From assembly GCA_025362495.1 (NCBI GenBank), contig JANYGI010000106.1, forward strand, positions 1-50,299: 50,299 nt of DNA, written 5' to 3'. Both the position numbers and the translations under genes were made by a program. How positions within the stretch are numbered: the stretch's first letter is position 1; each line of letters starts with the position of its first letter. Shown piece after piece: positions 36,278 to 49,728 of the stretch. The DNA is from Byssovorax sp. (GTDB lineage Bacteria; Myxococcota_A; Polyangia; Polyangiales; Polyangiaceae). A model generated the notes under the pieces. That model saw nothing but the letters and a program-made list of their open reading frames with translations, ran no database searches and was not told the origin of the DNA.

Positions 36278-37819
36278 TCACCACTGCGTCGGCGCGTAGT
36301 CCTTGAGGAACTTCCCCGAGACATGGACGCCGCTGAGGAGCCCCGAGAAGAACGGATCGCAGATCCGCGCCGCGCCGTCGACGATGTCGAGCGGAGCATG
36401 GAAGTCGTGCTCTTGCTGCTTGCGCGCCGAGAGCGCCGCCGGATCCTCGTCGGTGACCCAGCCGGTGTCGACGGCGTTCATGAAGATCCCGTCGGCCGCG
36501 TAGTCGGGCGCCGAGGTCAGCGTCATCATGTTGAGAGCGGCCTTGGCCATGTTGGTGTGAGGGTGCTTGTCCGTCTTGGTGCGGCGGGCAAACTGGCCTT
36601 CCATCGCCGAGACGTTGACGATGTGCTTCTCGCCGGTCGGGAAGCGCAGCATCAGCGATTTCAGCTTGCTGCAGAGGATGAACGGCGCGACGGCGTTGAC
36701 GAGCTGGACCTCGAGCATCTCGGGCGAGGACACCTGGCTCAGGGTGAGGCGCCAGCTGTTGATGGGGCGGAGATCGATCTGCTGGAGATCCGCGTCGGAT
36801 TTGCCCGCGGGGAACACGTCTTCTCCGTGGCCCGCGTCCTCGGCGCAGGGGATCTGCGAGAGCATCGCCGAGGCGCGGATCCCGATCCCGGGGCCGCCGC
36901 CACGCCAGGCGACGACGCCGCTCGGATCGACGTGGCCATGATCGATGATCGCCAGCGCGGGCTCGGCCAGGCCTGATTTGCAGGCCTCGTGGCCGCGGAG
37001 GAGCGACTGCACCTCGGGCGTGAGGTCGCCGAAAGCGCGCGACTCGTGCTCGAGGAGGTGGGCATAGAAGCCGGACGGCCGGCGCACCGTCTGGGCCGCG
37101 TTGTTGATCAGGATGTCGAGACGACTCTGGGTCTGCTCCAGGTAGCGCGCGAAGATCTCCACGCTGGGCGAGTGGCGGAGATCGAGGCCATAGACCTCGA
37201 GGCGAGAGCCCCAGTCGGCGAAATCGGCCTCGCGCGAGAAGCGAGACGCGGCGTCGTGGGGGAAGCGCGTCGTCACGATCACCCTGGCGCCGGCCCGCAG
37301 CATCATCAGCGCGGCCTGGAAGCCGATCTTGATCCGCGCCCCGGTGATGACGGCGGTGCGGCCCGCGAGAGAGGCAGTCTGGAAGCGCTTCTGGTAGTTG
37401 AGCTCGGCGCAGGGCGCGCACATCGAGTCGTAGAAGAAGTGGAGCCTTCGATACTCGGCCTTGCAGACGTAGCAGGCGCGCGACTGCATGAGCTCGGGCG
37501 CCTCGGCCTCGGCGGCCTCGATCACGCCCGGCGCGAGCTGCGGGGGCGCGCTGAAGACCTCGGCGCGGCGGGCGGCGCGGATCTCGGTGCTGGCCCGCGC
37601 CTCGCGATCCGACTCGCGATCGTTCTTGCGGGTGACCTTCCGGAAGTGCTTCGCGGTGCGCATCAGCTCGTGGCGCGTCGGGCGCGAGATGCGGCCGGCG
37701 GCGATGAGCAGGGCGACGCGCTCGTGGTCGTCCATGGAGGAGAGCAGGTTGCGATCGTCGACGATCTTCTCGAGCAGCTCGATGGCGGCGCGCAGCGCGG
37801 CAGGGGTGATCTCGGTCAT
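36278..37819 (-). CDS. SDR-like oxidoreductase with zinc-ribbon-like segment
   Basis: A 513-aa protein. The N-terminal ~160 residues are helical and contain [22 protein letters not shown], a CxxC-CxxC zinc-binding pattern. The rest is a Rossmann short-chain dehydrogenase: [37 protein letters not shown]. The usual YxxxK active site is replaced by [10 protein letters not shown], where the Lys stays but the Tyr position is Thr, so it may not be a classical dehydrogenase; related proteins share this feature as far as I recall. Substrate unknown. Confidence 0.78.
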
Positions 37820-37978
37820 GGGAGTGCGCGAGCGTATAGCGCAGCCGGCCGGCGATTGCCGCGCGGATCGCCCGGGAAGAGCCACGCCACTGGCTCCTTC
37901 GCGCGCGGAGGGGTGACGACGCCGCTCGTGAGGCCTGAAAAACGTGACTTTCGGCCGGGAATGCGCCACTTTCCGGCG

Positions 37979-38935
37979 ATGAAGCGCCTGCCCTTCGTCG
38001 TCGTGCTCGCCCTCACCGCGTGCAGCGCGGCGCCGCCTCCGGTGAGCACCCTCGCGCCCGCGGCGCCGCCTCCGGCCGCGGCCGTGGCGATCGACGCCCA
38101 TCCGGCCGTCGCGGCGGACGTGCCGAGTCCGGCCGCCACGGCGACGGCCGAAGCACCGGAGTCGCCGTCCGACGATCTGCCGGCCCCGCCGGACGTCGCG
38201 GCCCCGCCCGCAGACGCCGCGAAGACGGCCTCCGGCCTCGCGACTCGGGTCCTCGCGCCTGGCACCGGCAAGGATCACCCCGGCCCGGACGACAAGGTCG
38301 AGGTGAACTACTCGGGCTGGACGAAGTCGGGCCGGATGTTCGATAGCTCGGTCGTCCGCAAAGAGTCGATGAAATTCGGCGTGGCGCAGGTCATCCCGGG
38401 CTGGACCGAGGGCCTTCAGCTCATGGTGGTGGGCGAGAAGCGTCGACTCTGGATCCCCGCCGAGCTGGCCTATGGCGATCATCCCCGCGGCGGAGCGCCC
38501 GCCGGCGCGCTGACGTTCGATGTCGAGCTCCTCGACATCAAGCCCGCCGCCAAGCCGCCGCTCACCCCGAAAGACGTGAAATCCCCGCCGAAGACCGCGA
38601 AGAAGACGCGGTCGGGCCTGGCCTATCGGGTGCTGAAGAAGGGCCCTGGCAAAGGCCCCTCGCCGGGGCCGACCACGACGGTGAGCGTCGATTACACCGG
38701 CTGGACGACCGACGGGAAAATATTCGACAGCTCGGTCGTGCGGGGCGAGCCCATCTCGTTCGGCGTCAACCAGGTGATCAAGGGCTGGACCGAGGGGCTC
38801 CAGCTCATGAAGGTCGGCGACTCGTACCGCTTCTGGATCCCGGCCACGCTGGCCTACGGAGTCAATCCGGGCAGGCCCGGCGTCCCCGCCGGCATGCTGG
38901 TGTTCGACGTGAATCTGCTCCGGATCGAGGAGTGA
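37979..38935 (+). CDS. Tandem FKBP-type peptidyl-prolyl isomerase lipoprotein
   Basis: A 318-aa exported folding factor: signal peptide with lipobox LTAC, a Pro/Ala-rich linker (about residues 20-75), then two FKBP domains. Each has the [16 protein letters not shown] or [16 protein letters not shown] strand, [26 protein letters not shown] and the VFDVNLL end. The two domains are clearly related, so an internal duplication is likely. It catalyses cis-trans isomerisation of Xaa-Pro bonds outside the inner membrane. It converges on a membrane protein gene with an 18-bp gap. Confidence 0.92.
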
Positions 38936-42202: not shown

Positions 42203-43363
42203 TCAGCGAAAGCTCTCTTGATAGCCGGGATCCTCGACGGATCGAGCCGCGGCCGTCTCGCGGAGAGGCCGCGTGGTGTCGAGCATCACGGCCAGCTCCG
42301 ACGTCTCGCGGTGGCCGATGCTGGCCTCGTAGGCGCCGGGGTGCGGCCCGTGCGGCAAGCCCGCCGGATGAAACGAGATGCTCCCTGGCCCGACGCCGCG
42401 GCGCGAGGTGAAGTTACCTCGGCAATAGAAGAGGATCTCGTCGCAGTCGACGGCCGAGTGCGGGTAAGGGCAGGGGATGGCCTCGGGGTGAAAGTCGACC
42501 ATCCGGGGGACGAAACTGCAGATGAGGGCGCCTCGCGTCGCGAACGTACCGTGCCAGTCGGGTGGCAGATGAACCAGCCCGGCGCGGGCCTGGAAGTCGA
42601 GGATCGGGAACGCGAACGGGTACACGGTGCCGTCCCAGCCCACGACGTCGAGCGGCGAGTCTGGCACGGTGAAGCCGTGAAACACGTTGCCGCGCTTCAC
42701 CACCAGCTCGCGCAGGCCTTCGTCGAGGGGGCCGACGAACTCGGGGCGCCGGAAATCGCGGTGGCAATAGGGCGCATCCATCCGCAGCTGGCCGGCCTCG
42801 TTACGCCACTGGCGGGGGAGGTGGATGCCGCCCGGCGCCTCGATCGAGAGCCACACCTGCTCCTTGCTCGAGTCGGGCAGGAAGCGGTGGAGCAGCCCCT
42901 TGGGGACGTAGACGTAGTCGTCTTCCTCGAAGCGGAGATCGCCGAGCACGGTGCGGAGCAGGCCGCCGCCGCGGAGCACGAAGAAGAGATCGTCGGCATC
43001 GCCGTTGGAGAAATAGACGGGATCCGCCGCCGTCGGGCGCACCAGGCCGACGACGACGTCGTCGTTGAAGAGCAGCGGCGTGCGCACGTCGATCGGGGCG
43101 CCGCCCGATCGTTTGAGCTCCAACGACTTGTAGTGGCGCTTGGCGAGGTGGGGCGCGGGGAGCGCGGCCTCGGGCACCGCGAAGCCGTGGTGGGCCTCGG
43201 CGACGCGGTGCTCGTGCGGCCGGCGCTCGTGGTAGAGGATCGTGTACGGCCCGTCGAAGCCGTCGCGCGTCAGGCACTCTTCCCAGCGCAGGGTCCCCGC
43301 GGCGTCGCGGTGCGCGATGTGGTGCTTCCGCGGGAACGAGCCGACAGCGATCCGGTCGATCAT
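42203..43363 (-). CDS. hmgA: Homogentisate 1,2-dioxygenase
   Basis: A 386-aa enzyme that opens the ring of homogentisate to maleylacetoacetate in tyrosine breakdown. Family motifs are present: RKHHIAHRD near the start, a cupin core with GGLLRTVLGDLRFEEDDYVYVPKG, the iron-site region SFHPAGLPHGPHPGAYE, and ETSELAVMLDT near the end. The start ATG overlaps the stop of the upstream gene (TGATG), showing translational coupling in the order FAH-HPPD-HGD. No transcription factor lies beside the operon. Confidence 0.92.
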   Translation of the reverse strand: MIDRIAVGSFPRKHHIAHRDAAGTLRWEECLTRDGFDGPYTILYHERRPHEHRVAEAHHGFAVPEAALPAPHLAKRHYKSLELKRSGGAPIDVRTPLLFNDDVVVGLVRPTAADPVYFSNGDADDLFFVLRGGGLLRTVLGDLRFEEDDYVYVPKGLLHRFLPDSSKEQVWLSIEAPGGIHLPRQWRNEAGQLRMDAPYCHRDFRRPEFVGPLDEGLRELVVKRGNVFHGFTVPDSPLDVVGWDGTVYPFAFPILDFQARAGLVHLPPDWHGTFATRGALICSFVPRMVDFHPEAIPCPYPHSAVDCDEILFYCRGNFTSRRGVGPGSISFHPAGLPHGPHPGAYEASIGHRETSELAVMLDTTRPLRETAAARSVEDPGYQESFR

Positions 43364-44514
43364 CAGGCCGCCCCCTCTGCCTTCTGCGTGCGCTCGATGC
43401 TCTCGAACAGCGCGCGGAAGTTGCCCCCGCCAAAGCCCTGATCACCCTTGCGCTGGATGATCTCGTAGAAGAACGGGCCGGCCTCGCGATCGGCGTGCGT
43501 GCCGGCCGACTCCTTCAGGAAGATCTGGAGCATGTACGAGCGGTCGCGATCACCGTCGACGAGGATCTCCAGCTCGCGGAGCACGCTGACCTCCTCATCG
43601 ATCTGCTTGATGCCGAGGCGCTGGATCCGCTCCGGGAGCATGTCGTAGTAGGCCTGCGGCGTGGGCATGAACGAGACGCCGCGCGCCCGCATCTCGCGCA
43701 CGCACGCGAGGATGTCTCTGGTCGTCATCGCCGCGTGCTGGATGCCGTCGCCGCGGTGCTCCTCGTTGAAGATGTTGATCTGCGAGGCCTTGAAGAAGGG
43801 CCGGTAGGGCTCGTTGTTGGCGAACTTCACGCCCGACTGACGATCCCACATCACGGCCGATTTCAGGCCCGATCCGTGGGTCGCGCTCTCGTCGACGTCG
43901 CTGGTGTGGAACTCGATCGACCAGAAGCGCTCGAAGCCGCACACGTGCTCCATCCAGAGGAGCGCCGGGGCCATCGTCTGGAAGTTCGACGTGACATGAT
44001 CGAAGCGCTCGAGGGCGAGGCGGTTCTTGCCGCCGCGCGGCTCGGTGTAATGGACCGCGCCGGGGAAGAGCGCCCGGTAGCCGTTGCGCTCGACGAAGCG
44101 GAACGTCGTGTCGCCGAAGGGCGTGGTGATCGAGAACGAGGCGAACTCGCCGCCGGCGTCGGTGGCGCGCTGGATTTCGTCGATGGGTGTGCCGCCGCGC
44201 GACTCGAGGAGCTTGAACGTGCGCTCGATGTCCTCCACCTCGAAGACCAGCGTGCCCACGCCGTCAGGGTGCTTGCGGAGGAAGCGCGAGGCGCGCCCGC
44301 CCTCGCCGAGCGGCGACGAGCAGACGACGAGGCACTCGCCGGCCTGGAAGATCGCGCTGCGCTGCTTCGCCGCGGCCTCGAGCTCGGGGCCGCTCCCGCC
44401 GATCTCCGCGAAGTCGAGCTTCTCGGTGTAGAAGCGCCGGCTCCGCTCCAGATCGTGAACGTAATAGTGGATGGCCTCGAGCTTCTTGATCCCGAGCGGT
44501 TCGATGGTCGACAT
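43363..44514 (-). CDS. hppD: 4-hydroxyphenylpyruvate dioxygenase
   Basis: A 383-aa two-domain vicinal-oxygen-chelate enzyme that converts 4-hydroxyphenylpyruvate into homogentisate. The iron ligands are visible: His in ERFDHVTSNF, His in GIQHAAMTT and Glu in FFYEIIQRKG. DGVGTLVFEVEDIERTFKLL and WSIEFHTSDVD also fit. The ATG at 44514 starts directly before the first domain. It lies 26 bp after the FAH gene and overlaps the start of hmgA by one base. Confidence 0.93.
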   Translation of the reverse strand: MSTIEPLGIKKLEAIHYYVHDLERSRRFYTEKLDFAEIGGSGPELEAAAKQRSAIFQAGECLVVCSSPLGEGGRASRFLRKHPDGVGTLVFEVEDIERTFKLLESRGGTPIDEIQRATDAGGEFASFSITTPFGDTTFRFVERNGYRALFPGAVHYTEPRGGKNRLALERFDHVTSNFQTMAPALLWMEHVCGFERFWSIEFHTSDVDESATHGSGLKSAVMWDRQSGVKFANNEPYRPFFKASQINIFNEEHRGDGIQHAAMTTRDILACVREMRARGVSFMPTPQAYYDMLPERIQRLGIKQIDEEVSVLRELEILVDGDRDRSYMLQIFLKESAGTHADREAGPFFYEIIQRKGDQGFGGGNFRALFESIERTQKAEGAA

Positions 44515-44540
44515 GGGGTGTGGTTTGCTCCAGGTGGGCG

Positions 44541-45518
44541 CTACTTCGCCACGACTTTTTGCGCGATCCGGCCGAACAAACTGCGCCCTTCGAGATCGAG
44601 CATCTCGATGGCGATCGTGTCGCCGGGCTTCATGAACGGCGTCGCCGGCTTGCCCTGCTCGATCGTCTCGATCATCCGCTGCTCGGCGAGGCACGAGATG
44701 CCCCGCGCCCGATCGGCGTTGGAGACGGTGCCGCTCCCGAGGATCGTGCCCGCCGTGAAGGCGCGCGTCTTCGCGACGTGGGCGAGGAGCTCGTAGAACG
44801 AGAAGTGCATCTCCGGTCCGGCCTCGGGATCGCCGACGAGCGCGCCGTTGTACGTCGAGCGGAGGCGGAGGTGAACGCGGCCGTCGCGCCACGCGTCGCC
44901 GAGCTCGTCCGGCGTCACCGCGAACGGGGAGAACGCCGTCGCCGGCTTGGAGTTGAAGAAGCCGAAGCCCTTGGCCAGCTCGTCCGGGATCAGGTTGCGA
45001 AGGGTGACGTCGTTGACGAGCGTGACCAACCGGACACAGCGGTGCGCGTCGTCCTTCGTCGTCCCCTGCGGGACGTCGCCGAGGATCAGCGCGACCTCGG
45101 CCTCGAAGTCGAGGCCCCACGCCGGATCGCCGAGCACGAGGTCGTCGGTCGGCCCGAGGAGGACGCCGGATCCACCCTGGTAAACGAGGGGATCGCTGCG
45201 CAGCGTCGCCGGCGGCTCGGCCCCGCGCGCCTTGCGCACCAGGACGATGTGGTTGATGTACGCCGAGCCGTCGACCCACTCGTACGCGCGCGGCAAGGGC
45301 GCCGCGAAGCGCGCGGGATCGACCGGCACCCCGGGGGTCTCGCCGCTGTCGAGGCGCGCGGCCAGGGCGAGCAGCGCGGGCTCGGCGCGCTCCCAGGCGT
45401 CGAGGGCGGCCTGGAGCGTCGGCGCGACGCCGATCGCGGGCGTGTAAACTTGGTTGTCGCGGCGGACGACGACGAGCGTGCCGTCGCGGGTCGAATCACG
45501 GAGCGTCCCGAGCTTCAT
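44541..45518 (-). CDS. Fumarylacetoacetate hydrolase family protein
   Basis: A 325-aa enzyme with the FAH C-terminal fold: LDFEAEVALILGDVPQGT, RLVTLVNDVTLRNL, GFGFFNSKPATAFSPFAV, and a metal site of acidic residues in EAEV and ND. In this operon it most likely cleaves fumarylacetoacetate (or maleylacetoacetate) to fumarate or maleate and acetoacetate, the last step of homogentisate breakdown. No maleylacetoacetate isomerase gene is in the window. It heads the operon with HPPD and HGD and lies 53 bp after the BPSL0067-type gene on the same strand. Confidence 0.9.
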   Translation of the reverse strand: MKLGTLRDSTRDGTLVVVRRDNQVYTPAIGVAPTLQAALDAWERAEPALLALAARLDSGETPGVPVDPARFAAPLPRAYEWVDGSAYINHIVLVRKARGAEPPATLRSDPLVYQGGSGVLLGPTDDLVLGDPAWGLDFEAEVALILGDVPQGTTKDDAHRCVRLVTLVNDVTLRNLIPDELAKGFGFFNSKPATAFSPFAVTPDELGDAWRDGRVHLRLRSTYNGALVGDPEAGPEMHFSFYELLAHVAKTRAFTAGTILGSGTVSNADRARGISCLAEQRMIETIEQGKPATPFMKPGDTIAIEMLDLEGRSLFGRIAQKVVAK

Positions 45519-45571: not shown

Positions 45572-45937
45572 CTACTCGACGACGGAGAACATGTCGCCGT
45601 CGTTGCTCGCGCTGCCGTTGCCGCCGTGGAAATGAATGATGCGCTCGCTCGGCGCGTGGCCGAGCCACTGGTCGAGCACGCGGATCCCGTTGCTGTCTTC
45701 GGAGAGGAAGATCGCCGCGTGGTTGCCGTGCGAGTGGTTCGGGTAGTGCCCGTCGACGAAGGTCGCGATGACGGTCCCCTTCGTGATGAGGTGGCCGTTG
45801 CCCTTCACCTTGATGCCCTGGTGCCAGGAAGCGGTGTTGGGCGCACCGGCCCACGCTTGAACGAGGGCCACGCACTGTCCGGTTCCGACAGCGCTGCGAG
45901 TGGAACGATGCTCGAGATTGTGGGCGATGTAGCTCAT
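45572..45937 (-). CDS. BPSL0067-family (NlpC/P60-like) protein
   Basis: A 121-aa protein with the BPSL0067 pattern: VGTGQCVALVQAWAGAPNTA with a likely catalytic Cys, IKVKGNGHLITKGTVIATF, YPNHSHGNHAAIFL with a likely catalytic His, VLDQWLGH and NDGDMFSVVE. The fold is NlpC/P60-like, a class that includes peptidoglycan amidases and peptidases. There is no signal peptide, so it could be a lysis or effector-type protein that is moved otherwise. The ATG at 45937 is chosen; the longer frame is unlikely. Confidence 0.82.
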   Translation of the reverse strand: MSYIAHNLEHRSTRSAVGTGQCVALVQAWAGAPNTASWHQGIKVKGNGHLITKGTVIATFVDGHYPNHSHGNHAAIFLSEDSNGIRVLDQWLGHAPSERIIHFHGGNGSASNDGDMFSVVE

Positions 45938-46055
45938 GGCGGCGATAGTAGCCGGGCGCGCGTGCGGATCGCCATGGCCGTCTGCTCGCGACACGTTCGA
46001 ACACAATCGAGAGGTGGTAGAGAACGACGACGGGTCTCTCCTGACTCGACGCGCC

Positions 46056-48392
46056 ATGACCGAAGGCTCTCCGATCACCGCGCTCCTCGGGCCCACCAAC
46101 ACCGGGAAGACGCACCGCGCCGTCGAGCGCATGCTCGCCTACGACTCGGGGATGATCGGCCTCCCGCTGCGCTTGCTGGCGCGCGAGGTCTACGATCGGA
46201 TCACCGCGCGCGTGGGCGAGGCGCGGGTCGCGCTCGTCACCGGCGAGGAGAAGCGCGTCCCGCGGCGCCCGGATTACTGGGTGTGCACCGTCGAGGCGAT
46301 GCCGATGGATCGCGAGGTTGACTTCCTCGCGGTCGACGAGATCCAGCTCGCCGCGCACGATCAGCGCGGGCACGTGTTCACCGAGCGCCTCCTCGCCGCG
46401 CGAGGGCGCCGCGAGACGTGGTTCATGGGCGCCGACACCATGCGCCAGATGTTCGCCGAGCTCTGCCCCGCGGCGAAGATCGTCGAGCACCCGCGGCTCT
46501 CGCGGCTCACGTCGGCGGGGCCGGCCAAGCTCTCCAAGCTGCCCGCGCGCAGCGCCGTCGTCGCGTTCGGCATGCCGCAGGTCTACGCGATCGCCGAGCG
46601 GCTGCGCGCGCTCCGGGGCGGCGCGGCGGTGGTGCTCGGCGCGCTCTCGCCCCGCACGCGCAACGCCCAGGTCGCGCTGTTCCAGGCGGGCGAGGTCGAC
46701 TACCTCGTCGCCACCGACGCCATCGGCATGGGGCTCAACCTCGGCGTGACCCACGTGGCGTTCGCGGGCCTGCGCAAGTTCGACGGGCACGCCGTGCGCG
46801 ATCTCGACACGGCCGAGCTCGCGCAGATCGCCGGACGCGCGGGCCGCTACACCACCGACGGCACCTTCGGCACCGTGGCCCCGCAAGGCCTCTCGCCCGA
46901 GCTGGCGCAGGCGATCGAGCTGCATCGTTTCGCCCCGGTACGGAGGCTATTTTATCGCAACACCGATCTCGACACGACGTCCGTCGACGGGCTCGTGGCG
47001 TCGCTGCGGCAGCGCCCACGCTCGCACGCTCTCCGCCTCGTCGAGCACGCCGAGGACACCGCGGCGCTCGTCGCGCTCGCGCAAGATCCTGGCGTGCGCG
47101 CGCGCGCTCGCGGCACGGAGGCCGTCGCGCTGCTGTGGGAGGTGTGCCGCGTCCCCGATTTTCGCAAGCTGCTCCTCGATACGCACGTGACGCTGCTCGC
47201 CGAGATCTACGCGCAGCTCACCGGCCCGCGCGCGATCATCGATTCCGATTTTCTCGCGGCGCGCCTCGCCGAGATCGACGATCCCGAGGGCGACATCGAC
47301 ACGCTGCTGGCGCGGATCGCCTCGATCCGGACGTGGACGTACATCTCGCATCGCGCGCTCTGGATCGCCGACGCGGCCGCCTGGCAAGAGCGCACCCGCG
47401 CGATCGAGGATCACCTGAGCGACGCGCTCCACGACCGCCTGGTGCAGCGCTTCGTCGAGCACGGCGCGGGGAAGCGCGGGACCGCGAGCTCGAAGCGCGC
47501 CCGCGCGAGCGCCGCGAGCGAGAGCGAGATCGAGGCCGCGCCGGTGAACGCGTCGCATCCGTTCGCGGCCCTCGCGTCGCTGCGCGGCCGGCTCGCGCCG
47601 GATCCGCCGGATCCCGTCGCGGCGCCGGATCGCTGGGTCGAGTCGCTGGTGTCGGCCGGGCACGAGCGCTTCGCCGTCGACGCGAGCGGCCGCATCCTCG
47701 ACACCGAGAGCGAGCGCGTGCTCGGCCACCTCACGCGCGGCACCACGCTGCTGCTCCCCGAGGTCCGCCTGCTCGATCTCGACGAGCTCGGCGCCGGCGC
47801 GCGATCCCGCGTGCTCCGCCGCCTCGTGGCGTTCGCGCGCGATCTGGTGACCGAGCTGCTCTCCCCGCTCCGCGTCGACGCAGCGCGCGAGCTCTCCGCC
47901 GCTGGACGCGGGGTGGTCTACCAGATCGAGCAGGGCCTCGGAACGCTCGATGCCCGCGACGCGCGCGGCCAGATCGCCGAGCTCTCGCCGCGCGATCGCC
48001 AGATCTTCGCCGAGCTCGAGGTGACGATCGGCGGCCGCGTCGTCTACGCGTCGGCGCTGCTCAAGCGCCCCGCGGTGGAGCAGCGCGCCGCGCTGTACGC
48101 GACGTTCTTCGACGGGCGCGCCCGGCCGGCGTTGCCGCGGCCCGGCGCCGTCTCGATGCCCGCGGAGAAGGGCGTCGAGCCCAGGGCCTATGTGCTGATT
48201 GGCTATCCGGTGTTCGGCGCGCGCGCCGTCCGCGGCGACGTGGCCGAGCGCGTCCACCGGGCCCTCGTCGAAAAGGCTGCAAACGAAGGCGATCCCGAGC
48301 GACAGGGCCCCTCCGTCGGGCAGCTCGCGAGCCTGCTCGGGTGCCCGGCGCGCGAGGTGCCGGCGATCACCGCGGAGCTGATGGCGAGCTGA
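46056..48392 (+). CDS. SUV3-like ATP-dependent RNA helicase
   Basis: A 778-aa DExH helicase of the SUV3 type. Motif I is GPTNTGKT (Lys18), motif II DEIQ (Asp94, Glu95), then WFMGADTMRQM and the C-terminal RecA motifs VDYLVATDAIGMGLNLGV and QIAGRAGRY. A SUV3 C-terminal-like region follows (LFYRNTDLDTTSVDGLVASL). The C-terminal ~300 residues are a family-specific extension with Arg-rich parts. SUV3 unwinds RNA for degradation in mitochondria; bacterial relatives occur but their role is less clear. The ATG at 46056 is taken from the motif position. Confidence 0.9.
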   Translation: MTEGSPITALLGPTNTGKTHRAVERMLAYDSGMIGLPLRLLAREVYDRITARVGEARVALVTGEEKRVPRRPDYWVCTVEAMPMDREVDFLAVDEIQLAAHDQRGHVFTERLLAARGRRETWFMGADTMRQMFAELCPAAKIVEHPRLSRLTSAGPAKLSKLPARSAVVAFGMPQVYAIAERLRALRGGAAVVLGALSPRTRNAQVALFQAGEVDYLVATDAIGMGLNLGVTHVAFAGLRKFDGHAVRDLDTAELAQIAGRAGRYTTDGTFGTVAPQGLSPELAQAIELHRFAPVRRLFYRNTDLDTTSVDGLVASLRQRPRSHALRLVEHAEDTAALVALAQDPGVRARARGTEAVALLWEVCRVPDFRKLLLDTHVTLLAEIYAQLTGPRAIIDSDFLAARLAEIDDPEGDIDTLLARIASIRTWTYISHRALWIADAAAWQERTRAIEDHLSDALHDRLVQRFVEHGAGKRGTASSKRARASAASESEIEAAPVNASHPFAALASLRGRLAPDPPDPVAAPDRWVESLVSAGHERFAVDASGRILDTESERVLGHLTRGTTLLLPEVRLLDLDELGAGARSRVLRRLVAFARDLVTELLSPLRVDAARELSAAGRGVVYQIEQGLGTLDARDARGQIAELSPRDRQIFAELEVTIGGRVVYASALLKRPAVEQRAALYATFFDGRARPALPRPGAVSMPAEKGVEPRAYVLIGYPVFGARAVRGDVAERVHRALVEKAANEGDPERQGPSVGQLASLLGCPAREVPAITAELMAS

Positions 48393-48396
48393 TTTT

Positions 48397-48428
48397 CCGT
48401 GCTCGTCGCGGCATGGCGACGAGCACGG
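48397..48428. terminator. Bidirectional hairpin between convergent genes
   Basis: A perfect 13-bp inverted repeat (48397-48409 with 48416-48428), loop of 6 nt, in the 46-bp gap between the helicase and the small convergent gene. A T-run lies on the plus strand only before the stem, so neither strand gets a canonical U-tail. It likely ends transcription from both sides by pausing or as a 3' stabiliser. Confidence 0.6.
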
Positions 48429-48438
48429 CGGCGCGACT

Positions 48439-48669
48439 TCAGGCCTGCTTCAAGCGCCCGTCGAGCGAGACCGCGGCGCAGGCGAGCATCGACGCTTCCC
48501 GGAGCAGGTGGAGCACGGCGTCGCGATCGGGGCAGTCGGGGACCTCTTTCAGGATCACCTCGGCAAATACCTTCGCGCCCCGGTGGAGCGCCTCGTACTG
48601 CGCGAGCTTCGCGGGCGTGGCCGAGTGGTGCGAAAAGACGTAGTCGGGATCGAAGTTGCCAGGGGGCAT
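48439..48669 (-). CDS. Acb2/Tad1-like cyclic-nucleotide-sponge homologue
   Basis: A 76-aa protein: an N-terminal Tyr/His segment (YVFSHHSATPAKLAQYEALH) followed by two helices (AKVFAEVILKEVPDCPDRDA and VLHLLREASMLACAAVSLDG). This is the pattern I know from the phage anti-CBASS/anti-Thoeris small proteins Acb2/Tad1: FTYH at the start, Y-x2-iR-x3-e-A, then a P-D/S-R-x3-A loop and a final E-A-x-M-x-A-N-A-x-I helix. Those proteins bind cyclic oligonucleotide or gcADPR signals and block defence. Similarity is by eye only. GGAG precedes the ATG by 7 nt. No phage genes are visible nearby. Confidence 0.6.
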   Translation of the reverse strand: MPPGNFDPDYVFSHHSATPAKLAQYEALHRGAKVFAEVILKEVPDCPDRDAVLHLLREASMLACAAVSLDGRLKQA

Positions 48670-48739
48670 CGGGAGCTCCGTCGCGTGAAGGGGTGAGCCC
48701 GACGAATACCAGGAAGCAACGCGCGGCGGTGGGCCCTCT

Positions 48740-49387
48740 TCACGGCGCCCAGGTGTGGGCGGCCTGCTTGCAATCGACGACGGGCACCGAGCCGTCGGCC
48801 TTCTTGACGAGCACGACCTGGTTGGCCGCGGAGCGGGGATACGAAGTATCGCTCTCGTCGCAGGTCGCGCTCTGGCCGGGGCCGATCACCACCCTGGCTC
48901 CGGCCTCGATGGTGCACTCGCTGATCATGTCGAGATCGTTCCACTGCTTGCAGATCTCGTAGACGCTGCGGTAGGTCGCCGCGGTGCCGCCGGGCCTGTC
49001 GAGCGTCCAGTAAGCGCCTGTGGGGCCCGCGAGCCGGGACTCTTTCCACGAGGCGCTGAAGAGGCGATAGACGGTCACCGGGCCCTTGGCGGTGAAGACC
49101 CGACCGGCGCAGAGCGAGCCTTTGCCGGGCTCGCCGATCGACCACGCGGGCGCCGGCTCGTCGACCGCGACGAGCCCGGGTGGCGGCGTCGCGATCGGGC
49201 CGGCGCAGGCCGCGTGGACGGCGGGCGCGGCCGGCTTGATCGGTGGTGCCGTGATCGCCGGCGTCGGCGACGCGGCGGTGATGGCGACGGGGCCCGGCTC
49301 GGGGAGGGCAGGCGGTCGGGCGGCGCCCCCACAGGCGATCAGGACCACGGAGAGCGCCGTCGAAAGGCGTGCGATCGGGGTGCGCAT
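48740..49387 (-). CDS. Lipoprotein of unknown function
   Basis: A 215-aa exported protein with signal peptide and lipobox LIAC, a Pro/Ala linker, then a ~140-residue domain with conserved-looking Cys (AACAGP, SLCAGR, YEICKQW, SECTIEAG, SATCDESD, VDCKQ). No family recognised. The ATG at 49387 gives the signal peptide. It lies 70 bp upstream of the Acb2-like gene on the same strand, so the two could share a transcript. The upstream 340 bp are non-coding. Confidence 0.68.
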   Translation of the reverse strand: MRTPIARLSTALSVVLIACGGAARPPALPEPGPVAITAASPTPAITAPPIKPAAPAVHAACAGPIATPPPGLVAVDEPAPAWSIGEPGKGSLCAGRVFTAKGPVTVYRLFSASWKESRLAGPTGAYWTLDRPGGTAATYRSVYEICKQWNDLDMISECTIEAGARVVIGPGQSATCDESDTSYPRSAANQVVLVKKADGSVPVVDCKQAAHTWAP

Positions 49388-49728
49388 CCCACGAATATCT
49401 CGAATTCGCACCCGGGCTGCAAGCACCTCCAGGGCGCGCGTGAAGAGAGCCAATCGATCCGGCGGCTCCGGTCGAGCAATGGAGCGACGGTGATCGCGCC
49501 TGGCGTCCCGGCTCACGCCCCCTTCGACAGGCCTGCAGGGATCACGTATCGCGTGAACGCCACACGCACAGAACGACTGTGGCGACCTCGTGTCGCTGGG
49601 CGCCACGGCGACTGCACGAGCGGTGGGCGTCACCACCGGGAGAGCCCATCCAGGACGTGATCAATGGCTGTCTCGAACGGCACGTTCGTGGCGACGTTGC
49701 TTGTCAGACTCGAAGTCAGGAGGAAGCC
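49388..49728. other. Intergenic stretch between divergent lipoprotein genes
   Basis: About 340 bp without a convincing gene. The part next to 49400 is A/T-richer (AATATCTCGAATTCG) and may contain the promoter of the minus-strand lipoprotein gene. The right end has a clear Shine-Dalgarno for the next gene. Nothing else could be assigned. Confidence 0.4.

Follow-up and report, generated by a model that had tools for sequence, protein, structure and literature searches.

A chromosomal gene for a 76-aa relative of the phage-borne Acb2 hairpin proteins was found in the window, the whole 50,299-nt stretch of Byssovorax sp. DNA that was analysed, which is one complete contig (G000:C19) and displays the setting of the gene as far as the contig ends. 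The explanation that we consider best, and to which we give about half of our confidence, is a chromosomal, lineage-maintained Acb2-like sponge for a dinucleotide of the host. The presence of a small conserved relative of a phage alarm-molecule sponge among ordinary myxobacterial genes suggests that these bacteria keep the protein for a purpose of their own.

The reading frame started with an ATG at 48669 and ended with a stop at 48439, which bore out the 76-aa product listed in an initial annotation of this DNA and placed it on the minus strand, a point that the annotation had left unstated. The GC content at the three codon positions (0.72/0.42/0.89) followed the pattern of most neighbouring genes, and on this codon-position composition the ORF is a real protein-coding gene. 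The gene and its immediate surroundings were as follows:

48439-48669, minus strand: gene for the Acb2-like hairpin protein, 76 aa (ORF, PF24729, PHROGs, composition and structural model)
48676-48679, minus strand: GGAG, a likely ribosome-binding site 6 nt before the ATG, as read from the sequence
45936-48392, plus strand: SUV3-type helicase gene (PF22527), the convergent neighbour
48397-48428, unstranded: 13-bp perfect inverted repeat with a 6-nt loop, a possible terminator located where the SUV3-type and Acb2-like genes converge
48740-49636, minus strand: 298-aa ORF, the upstream neighbour, 70 nt from the Acb2-like gene, with no Pfam or PHROG match

Pfam PF24729 (Acb2_Tad1_hairpin) matched residues 14-67 of the protein with an E value of 3.2e-7 and 30.9 bits, above the cut-off of 27. 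This was the single match above cut-off in the 10.8-Mb Byssovorax sp. genome (listed as 96.6% complete), in which ten weaker matches (E 0.09 to 3) all lay within long frames; the Acb2-like gene was present there in a single copy. The protein also matched two PHROGs whose function is unknown, 31113 (E 5e-9) and 1454 (E 2e-6). The two PHROGs were matched by all 13 members of the host-type group, that is, the window protein and the 12 other intact copies described below, each of which also passed the PF24729 cut-off. No match was obtained when the protein was searched against NCBIfam or, with phmmer, against the PDB, and in a profile search the Acb2 homologue 9PTQ ranked below a designed bundle, with an E value no better than 0.06.

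The AlphaFold2 model of the protein (mean pLDDT 81, with low values toward either end; pTM 0.63) consisted of one short and two long helices (residues 8-11, 19-42 and 47-75) and no beta strand. Besides the window protein, the input alignment included 39 viral relatives, and because it was mostly of phage Acb2-type the model leans toward Acb2. With Foldseek, the first three PDB matches were chains of 7UQ2 (probability 0.90-0.92, weak E values of 0.5-0.9), the best being T4 Acb2 (T4 Vs.4 with cGAMP) at a probability of 0.92 but an E value of 0.54; among viral models the top matches were annotated as Acb2/Tad1 hairpins, with Phabba first (probability 1.00, E 0.0018). VIA-align placed T4 Vs.4 at rank 24 among generic helical hairpins (Z 5.8, rmsd 6.9, 74 residues aligned), an unspecific result. 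The structural definitions of Acb2 and Tad1 used for comparison were those in the available text of PMC12043709 and PMC10419184. The resemblance to Acb2/Tad1 proteins proposed in the initial annotation was thus matched by the curated profile, the PHROGs and the predicted fold, including the helical hairpin that it had expected; the Acb2-like half of the label stood, and the Tad1-like half did not, since the 76-aa model has no beta strand. On sequence, we file the protein as a relative within the hairpin family and not as an Acb2, because the positions aligned with the T4 pocket residues carry other residues in it.

The annotation had also described a plain chromosomal setting beside a SUV3-like helicase, with no phage genes in view, and both descriptions agreed with the domain matches. 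The convergent gene carried PF22527, and no phage structural PHROG was matched by any of eight chosen window proteins between 34.6 and 49.6 kb, two of which had PHROG matches related to metabolism or helicases. Pfam matches, mostly to metabolic or housekeeping families, were obtained for five of nine window proteins scanned. The inverted repeat had no T run and was not scored as a terminator. Farther from the gene, genes at 42206-45518 had matches of fumarylacetoacetate hydrolase and glyoxalase/dioxygenase type and a weak, below-cut-off match to homogentisate dioxygenase, a group that resembles a tyrosine-degradation cluster. A frame of 734 aa at 36278-38482, part of which is of short-chain-dehydrogenase type, was 48% identical to the gene adjoining the Acb2-like gene of genome G074, which has a counterpart in G073.

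The distribution of the gene was patchy. At E 1e-3, 13 of 108 genomes of the family were matched; one of these, G021, was rejected as a false positive with its match inside a histidine kinase-like frame, which left 12 intact copies, that of Byssovorax sp. included. Across the order, 13 of 183 genomes were matched at E 1e-4, one holder being from another family. The holders belonged to five genera of the family (g40, 6/8 genomes; g41, 2/3; g36, 2/12; g1 and g7, single genomes each) and to one genus of the other family, and their copies were 53-78% identical to the window's protein. G085, the genome nearest to Byssovorax sp. in a PGK tree of 19 genomes, was without the gene. A profile built from the 13 proteins identified one further genome, G064, where the match was split into two pieces lying in different frames; its contig agreed with a record of Labilithrix sp. 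RYN_370, listed under Polyangiales, at every one of the 301 bases compared. In this metagenome-assembled genome, the copy (L021, 979-1136) was frame-shifted and N-terminally incomplete, by loss or by assembly error. Phylum-wide, a Pfam search of 377 genomes recovered Byssovorax sp. and three phage-type copies, and the 13-protein profile recovered Byssovorax sp. and two of those three. No match to the window protein was found with tblastn among 72,556 plasmids.

The surroundings of the other copies were examined with Pfam alone, for ten of the twelve (the flanks of G008 and G161 lay outside the scan). Sixteen of the 20 flanking proteins had a Pfam match, mostly metabolic or housekeeping, and none of these matches was of a phage structural kind. 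An RNase HI gene was divergent from and adjoined the Acb2-like gene in G071, G072 (both by Pfam) and G076 (by similarity), and the Acb2-like proteins of G072 and G071 were only 53% identical despite this common neighbour. Other neighbours of host-type copies included glutathione peroxidase, acyl-CoA-binding protein, protein kinase, glycoside-active enzymes and Kelch-repeat proteins. In G073 and G074, the dehydrogenase-type gene adjoined the Acb2-like gene, EF-G was two genes away, and a PIN-domain gene lay within about 1.5 kb (L026, 11134-11562, in G074; L028, 10783-11214, in G073); in G074, a small frame was directly upstream of the PIN-domain gene, as in toxin-antitoxin pairs, in which PIN-domain genes are common. 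An acyl-CoA-binding protein gene (PF00887) followed the Acb2-like gene on the same strand in G073 (L028, 10478-10741), with a related frame in G074 (L026, 10024-10329).

A prophage or mobile-element locus was disfavoured by these mostly metabolic and housekeeping flanks, with the PIN-domain gene of G073 and G074 as the exception; a cryptic element may be present at the loci, given that eight of the 29 proteins scanned there and in the window had no Pfam match. A conserved operon was also rejected, as loci from different genera had nothing in common beyond the gene, kinase-type genes of a widespread sort and a single weak match of 33%. When the window genes between 38 and 50 kb were compared with the 12 other loci, none recurred except the Acb2-like gene (ORF 45575-46132 stood outside this comparison, its short matches reflecting its overlap with the start of the SUV3-type gene), and the SUV3-type gene was not near the Acb2-like gene in any of them. 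The dehydrogenase-type gene from 36-38 kb did recur: it was present in 10 of 13 holders, was 10 kb from the Acb2-like gene in the window, and was on a different contig from it in seven of the 10. An empty-site comparison drew on six genomes that have a SUV3 homologue, among them two holders; about 10 kb around the homologue contained no other gene of the window, and no scar was readable.

Relatives in phages were distant. Searching 50,697 phage records by tblastn with the window protein returned four records from three Mycobacterium phages, which covered 83-93% of the query at 37-43% identity; with the member from G080, 41 records were returned, of which the best matched 76-83% of that protein at about 40-46% identity. 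Overall, the closest phage proteins found shared about 37-46% identity with host-type members. Scans of 2.9 million viral contigs, which need an exact short peptide and are not exhaustive, gave no relative with the window protein or the 13-row alignment; the G161 member led to one phage contig (41%) and the Myrna protein to three. The phage-type copy in G420 adjoined portal, major head and terminase genes, and that in G187 lay among small frames; of five that were tested, one had a match to a methyltransferase PHROG and another to a PHROG of unknown function.

In a tree of 27 rows, the 13 host-type proteins formed one clade (support 99/99), with the Myrna protein nearest to it (94/86) under a root placed by midpoint only. 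The six g40 copies fell in different places within this tree rather than as one group, which makes transfer between bacteria possible, and inheritance may not have been purely vertical. The gene tree and the PGK tree were in clear agreement for just three pairs, G071/G076, G073/G074 and G062/G063, the PGK tree being a poor species tree, with two PGK matches in five of its 19 genomes.

Three close pairs had dN/dS ratios of 0.06, 0.10 and 0.12, and most of their differences fell at third codon positions; the Acb2-like gene is under purifying selection in the three pairs compared. The initial annotation had named a prophage remnant among its possibilities. A decaying remnant or a recently acquired phage-derived fragment would fit the frame-shifted Labilithrix copy and the patchy distribution, and we consider it very improbable given the low dN/dS ratios, the spread of copies over five genera of the family plus a sixth in another family, the distance to the nearest phage proteins found, the mostly housekeeping or metabolic contexts of the relatives and the lack of a phage structural gene among the eight window neighbours.

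The host-type proteins were distinguished by motifs at both ends and by the residues aligned with the ligand pocket of T4 Acb2:

48625-48654, minus strand: N-terminal subtype motif FDPxYVFSHH, residues 6-15, from the 13-row alignment
48583-48585, minus strand: codon of His29, aligned with the conserved Arg/Lys of phage members
48448-48462, minus strand: C-terminal tail DGRLK, residues 70-74, with G71 invariant and R72 and L73 nearly so in the 13 rows

In the N-terminal motif, F6, P8, Y10, V11, F12, H14 and H15 were invariant in all 13 proteins. Residues Y8, K23, T68 and F82 of T4 Acb2 aligned with H14, H29, H54 and S68 of the window protein, equivalences that are likely rather than certain in an alignment of 24% identity. 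Position 14 was His in 13/13 host-type proteins and Tyr in 84/84 viral rows, and position 29 was His in 13/13 and Arg in 84/84; the viral rows (69 distinct) are a biased set, 80 of them having been fetched by peptide patterns from one phage-type sequence. Among 11 diverse phage isolates, position 14 was Tyr in four, Phe in three, Ser in two, His in one (Bask21) and Ile in one, and position 29 was Arg or Lys in 10, T4 having Lys and Cuco aligning with Asp. Among the sequences compared, His29 is therefore specific to the host-type group, and His14 not quite. K23 of T4 Acb2 is presumably a pocket residue. The Y8A substitution is reported to abolish dinucleotide binding by T4 Acb2, and F82 to stack on the ligand (PMC12657218, available text); T68M is said to lower the affinity (PMC12657230, available text).

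The altered pocket positions may mean either a new ligand or lost binding. By analogy with Y8A, the change from Tyr to His could mean loss of the site, which counts against a sponge. A hairpin exapted in this way, having lost nucleotide binding, would now have a different partner, either a protein or, through H14, H15 and H29, a metal. The replacement of all four T4 residues by H, H, H and S, the invariance of H14 and H29, and the new N- and C-terminal motifs are consistent with such a change of function; the Tyr position varies among the 11 phage isolates too and is not decisive, and metal binding is a guess. We regard this exaptation as quite unlikely, and binding of a cyclic nucleotide by the 76-aa protein, as judged from the predicted fold, as likely.

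The nucleotide signals of the host bear on what would be bound. No match to the SMODS domain of CD-NTases was found in the Byssovorax sp. genome. Across the family, SMODS was present in nine of 108 genomes, two of the 12 holders (G074 and G080) versus seven of the 96 others, with no significant association (Fisher p 0.26). The c-di-AMP synthase domain (DAC) was present in all 12 holders, Byssovorax sp. included, and in 104 of the 108 genomes. Byssovorax sp. had 17 GGDEF matches, 14 of which could be read at the Hypr Ser position, which we take to be tied to the GHxxGD motif; all 14 had the canonical Asp, leaving no Hypr signature in 14 of the 17. Hypr enzymes carry Ser at that position of the GGDEF domain (PMC6456294, available text), and 3',3'-cGAMP has been reported in Myxococcus xanthus, a more distant myxobacterium (PMC8844925, available text).

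The initial annotation had offered a domesticated anti-defence gene or a host buffer for a signalling nucleotide. Taken together, these two are favoured; for a CBASS role no target is visible in this genome (no SMODS match), and the positions aligned with the phage dinucleotide pocket are substituted. An anti-defence gene or brake would still sequester the nucleotides of immune systems (CBASS, Thoeris, type III CRISPR), shielding the cell from accidental or incoming abortive-infection systems. Its predicted fold and its family are those of phage Acb2, its patchy presence fits an arms-race gene, and two holders do carry a SMODS cyclase; the window's genome does not, the holders are not significantly enriched, and the pocket positions are changed, and on balance we find the brake unlikely.

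Buffering of a host dinucleotide appears most likely, because two aligned pocket positions are invariant His, and the genome has a c-di-AMP synthase but showed no CBASS cyclase and, in the 14 GGDEF domains read, no Hypr signature. A phage was the probable source of the ancestral gene, a direction of transfer that we infer; the product of the gene would form a hairpin multimer as in Acb2, bind a cyclic nucleotide without cleaving it, and buffer a dinucleotide made by the host, with c-di-AMP as the first candidate. A housekeeping dinucleotide is our leading guess for the ligand, given the synthase; DAC is found in nearly all relatives and does not explain a gene kept in only 12 of 108 genomes. 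Also counted against the sponge are the patchy distribution, the frame-shifted Labilithrix copy, the PIN-domain neighbours, the weak Foldseek E value for T4 Acb2 and its VIA-align rank. A more specific proposal, that a phage sponge was turned into a resident Polyangiales regulator of a housekeeping messenger, a bacterial non-immune cyclic-dinucleotide buffer retuned by the two pocket His residues, is tentative and somewhat unlikely.

In the available text of PMC12043709 and PMC11722364, Acb2/Tad1-type sponges are presented as weapons of phages or prophages. Literature searched by protein and family names, mostly outside subscription journals, gave no paper on chromosomal bacterial copies among the matches listed. 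A conserved bacterial copy would raise the question whether cells buffer nucleotide signals of their own by non-enzymatic means, for which the 76-aa protein is a small and testable subject.

Acb2 is reported to bind cAA (PMC10419184 and PMC12043709, available text). Compared with Acb2 of T4 (Vs.4, 7UQ2), the window protein has the same hairpin domain, a similar length (76 versus 88 aa), a short N-terminal helix with two long helices, and an ASMxAC motif near the hairpin end; it differs in being chromosomal rather than phage-borne and in the four pocket positions. Tad1 (Thoeris anti-defence 1) has the Pfam hairpin domain name in common with it, whereas an antiparallel beta sheet precedes the Tad1 hairpin (PMC12043709, available text) and the 76-aa protein is predicted to contain helices only. 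The closest named phage proteins found, those of the Mycobacterium phages Myrna, Phabba and ScoobyDoobyDoo, begin with VFSYH and, like the window protein, have no Trp at position 62, but they retain Tyr14 and Arg29 and have a longer C-terminal part (165 aa in all for Myrna gp211).
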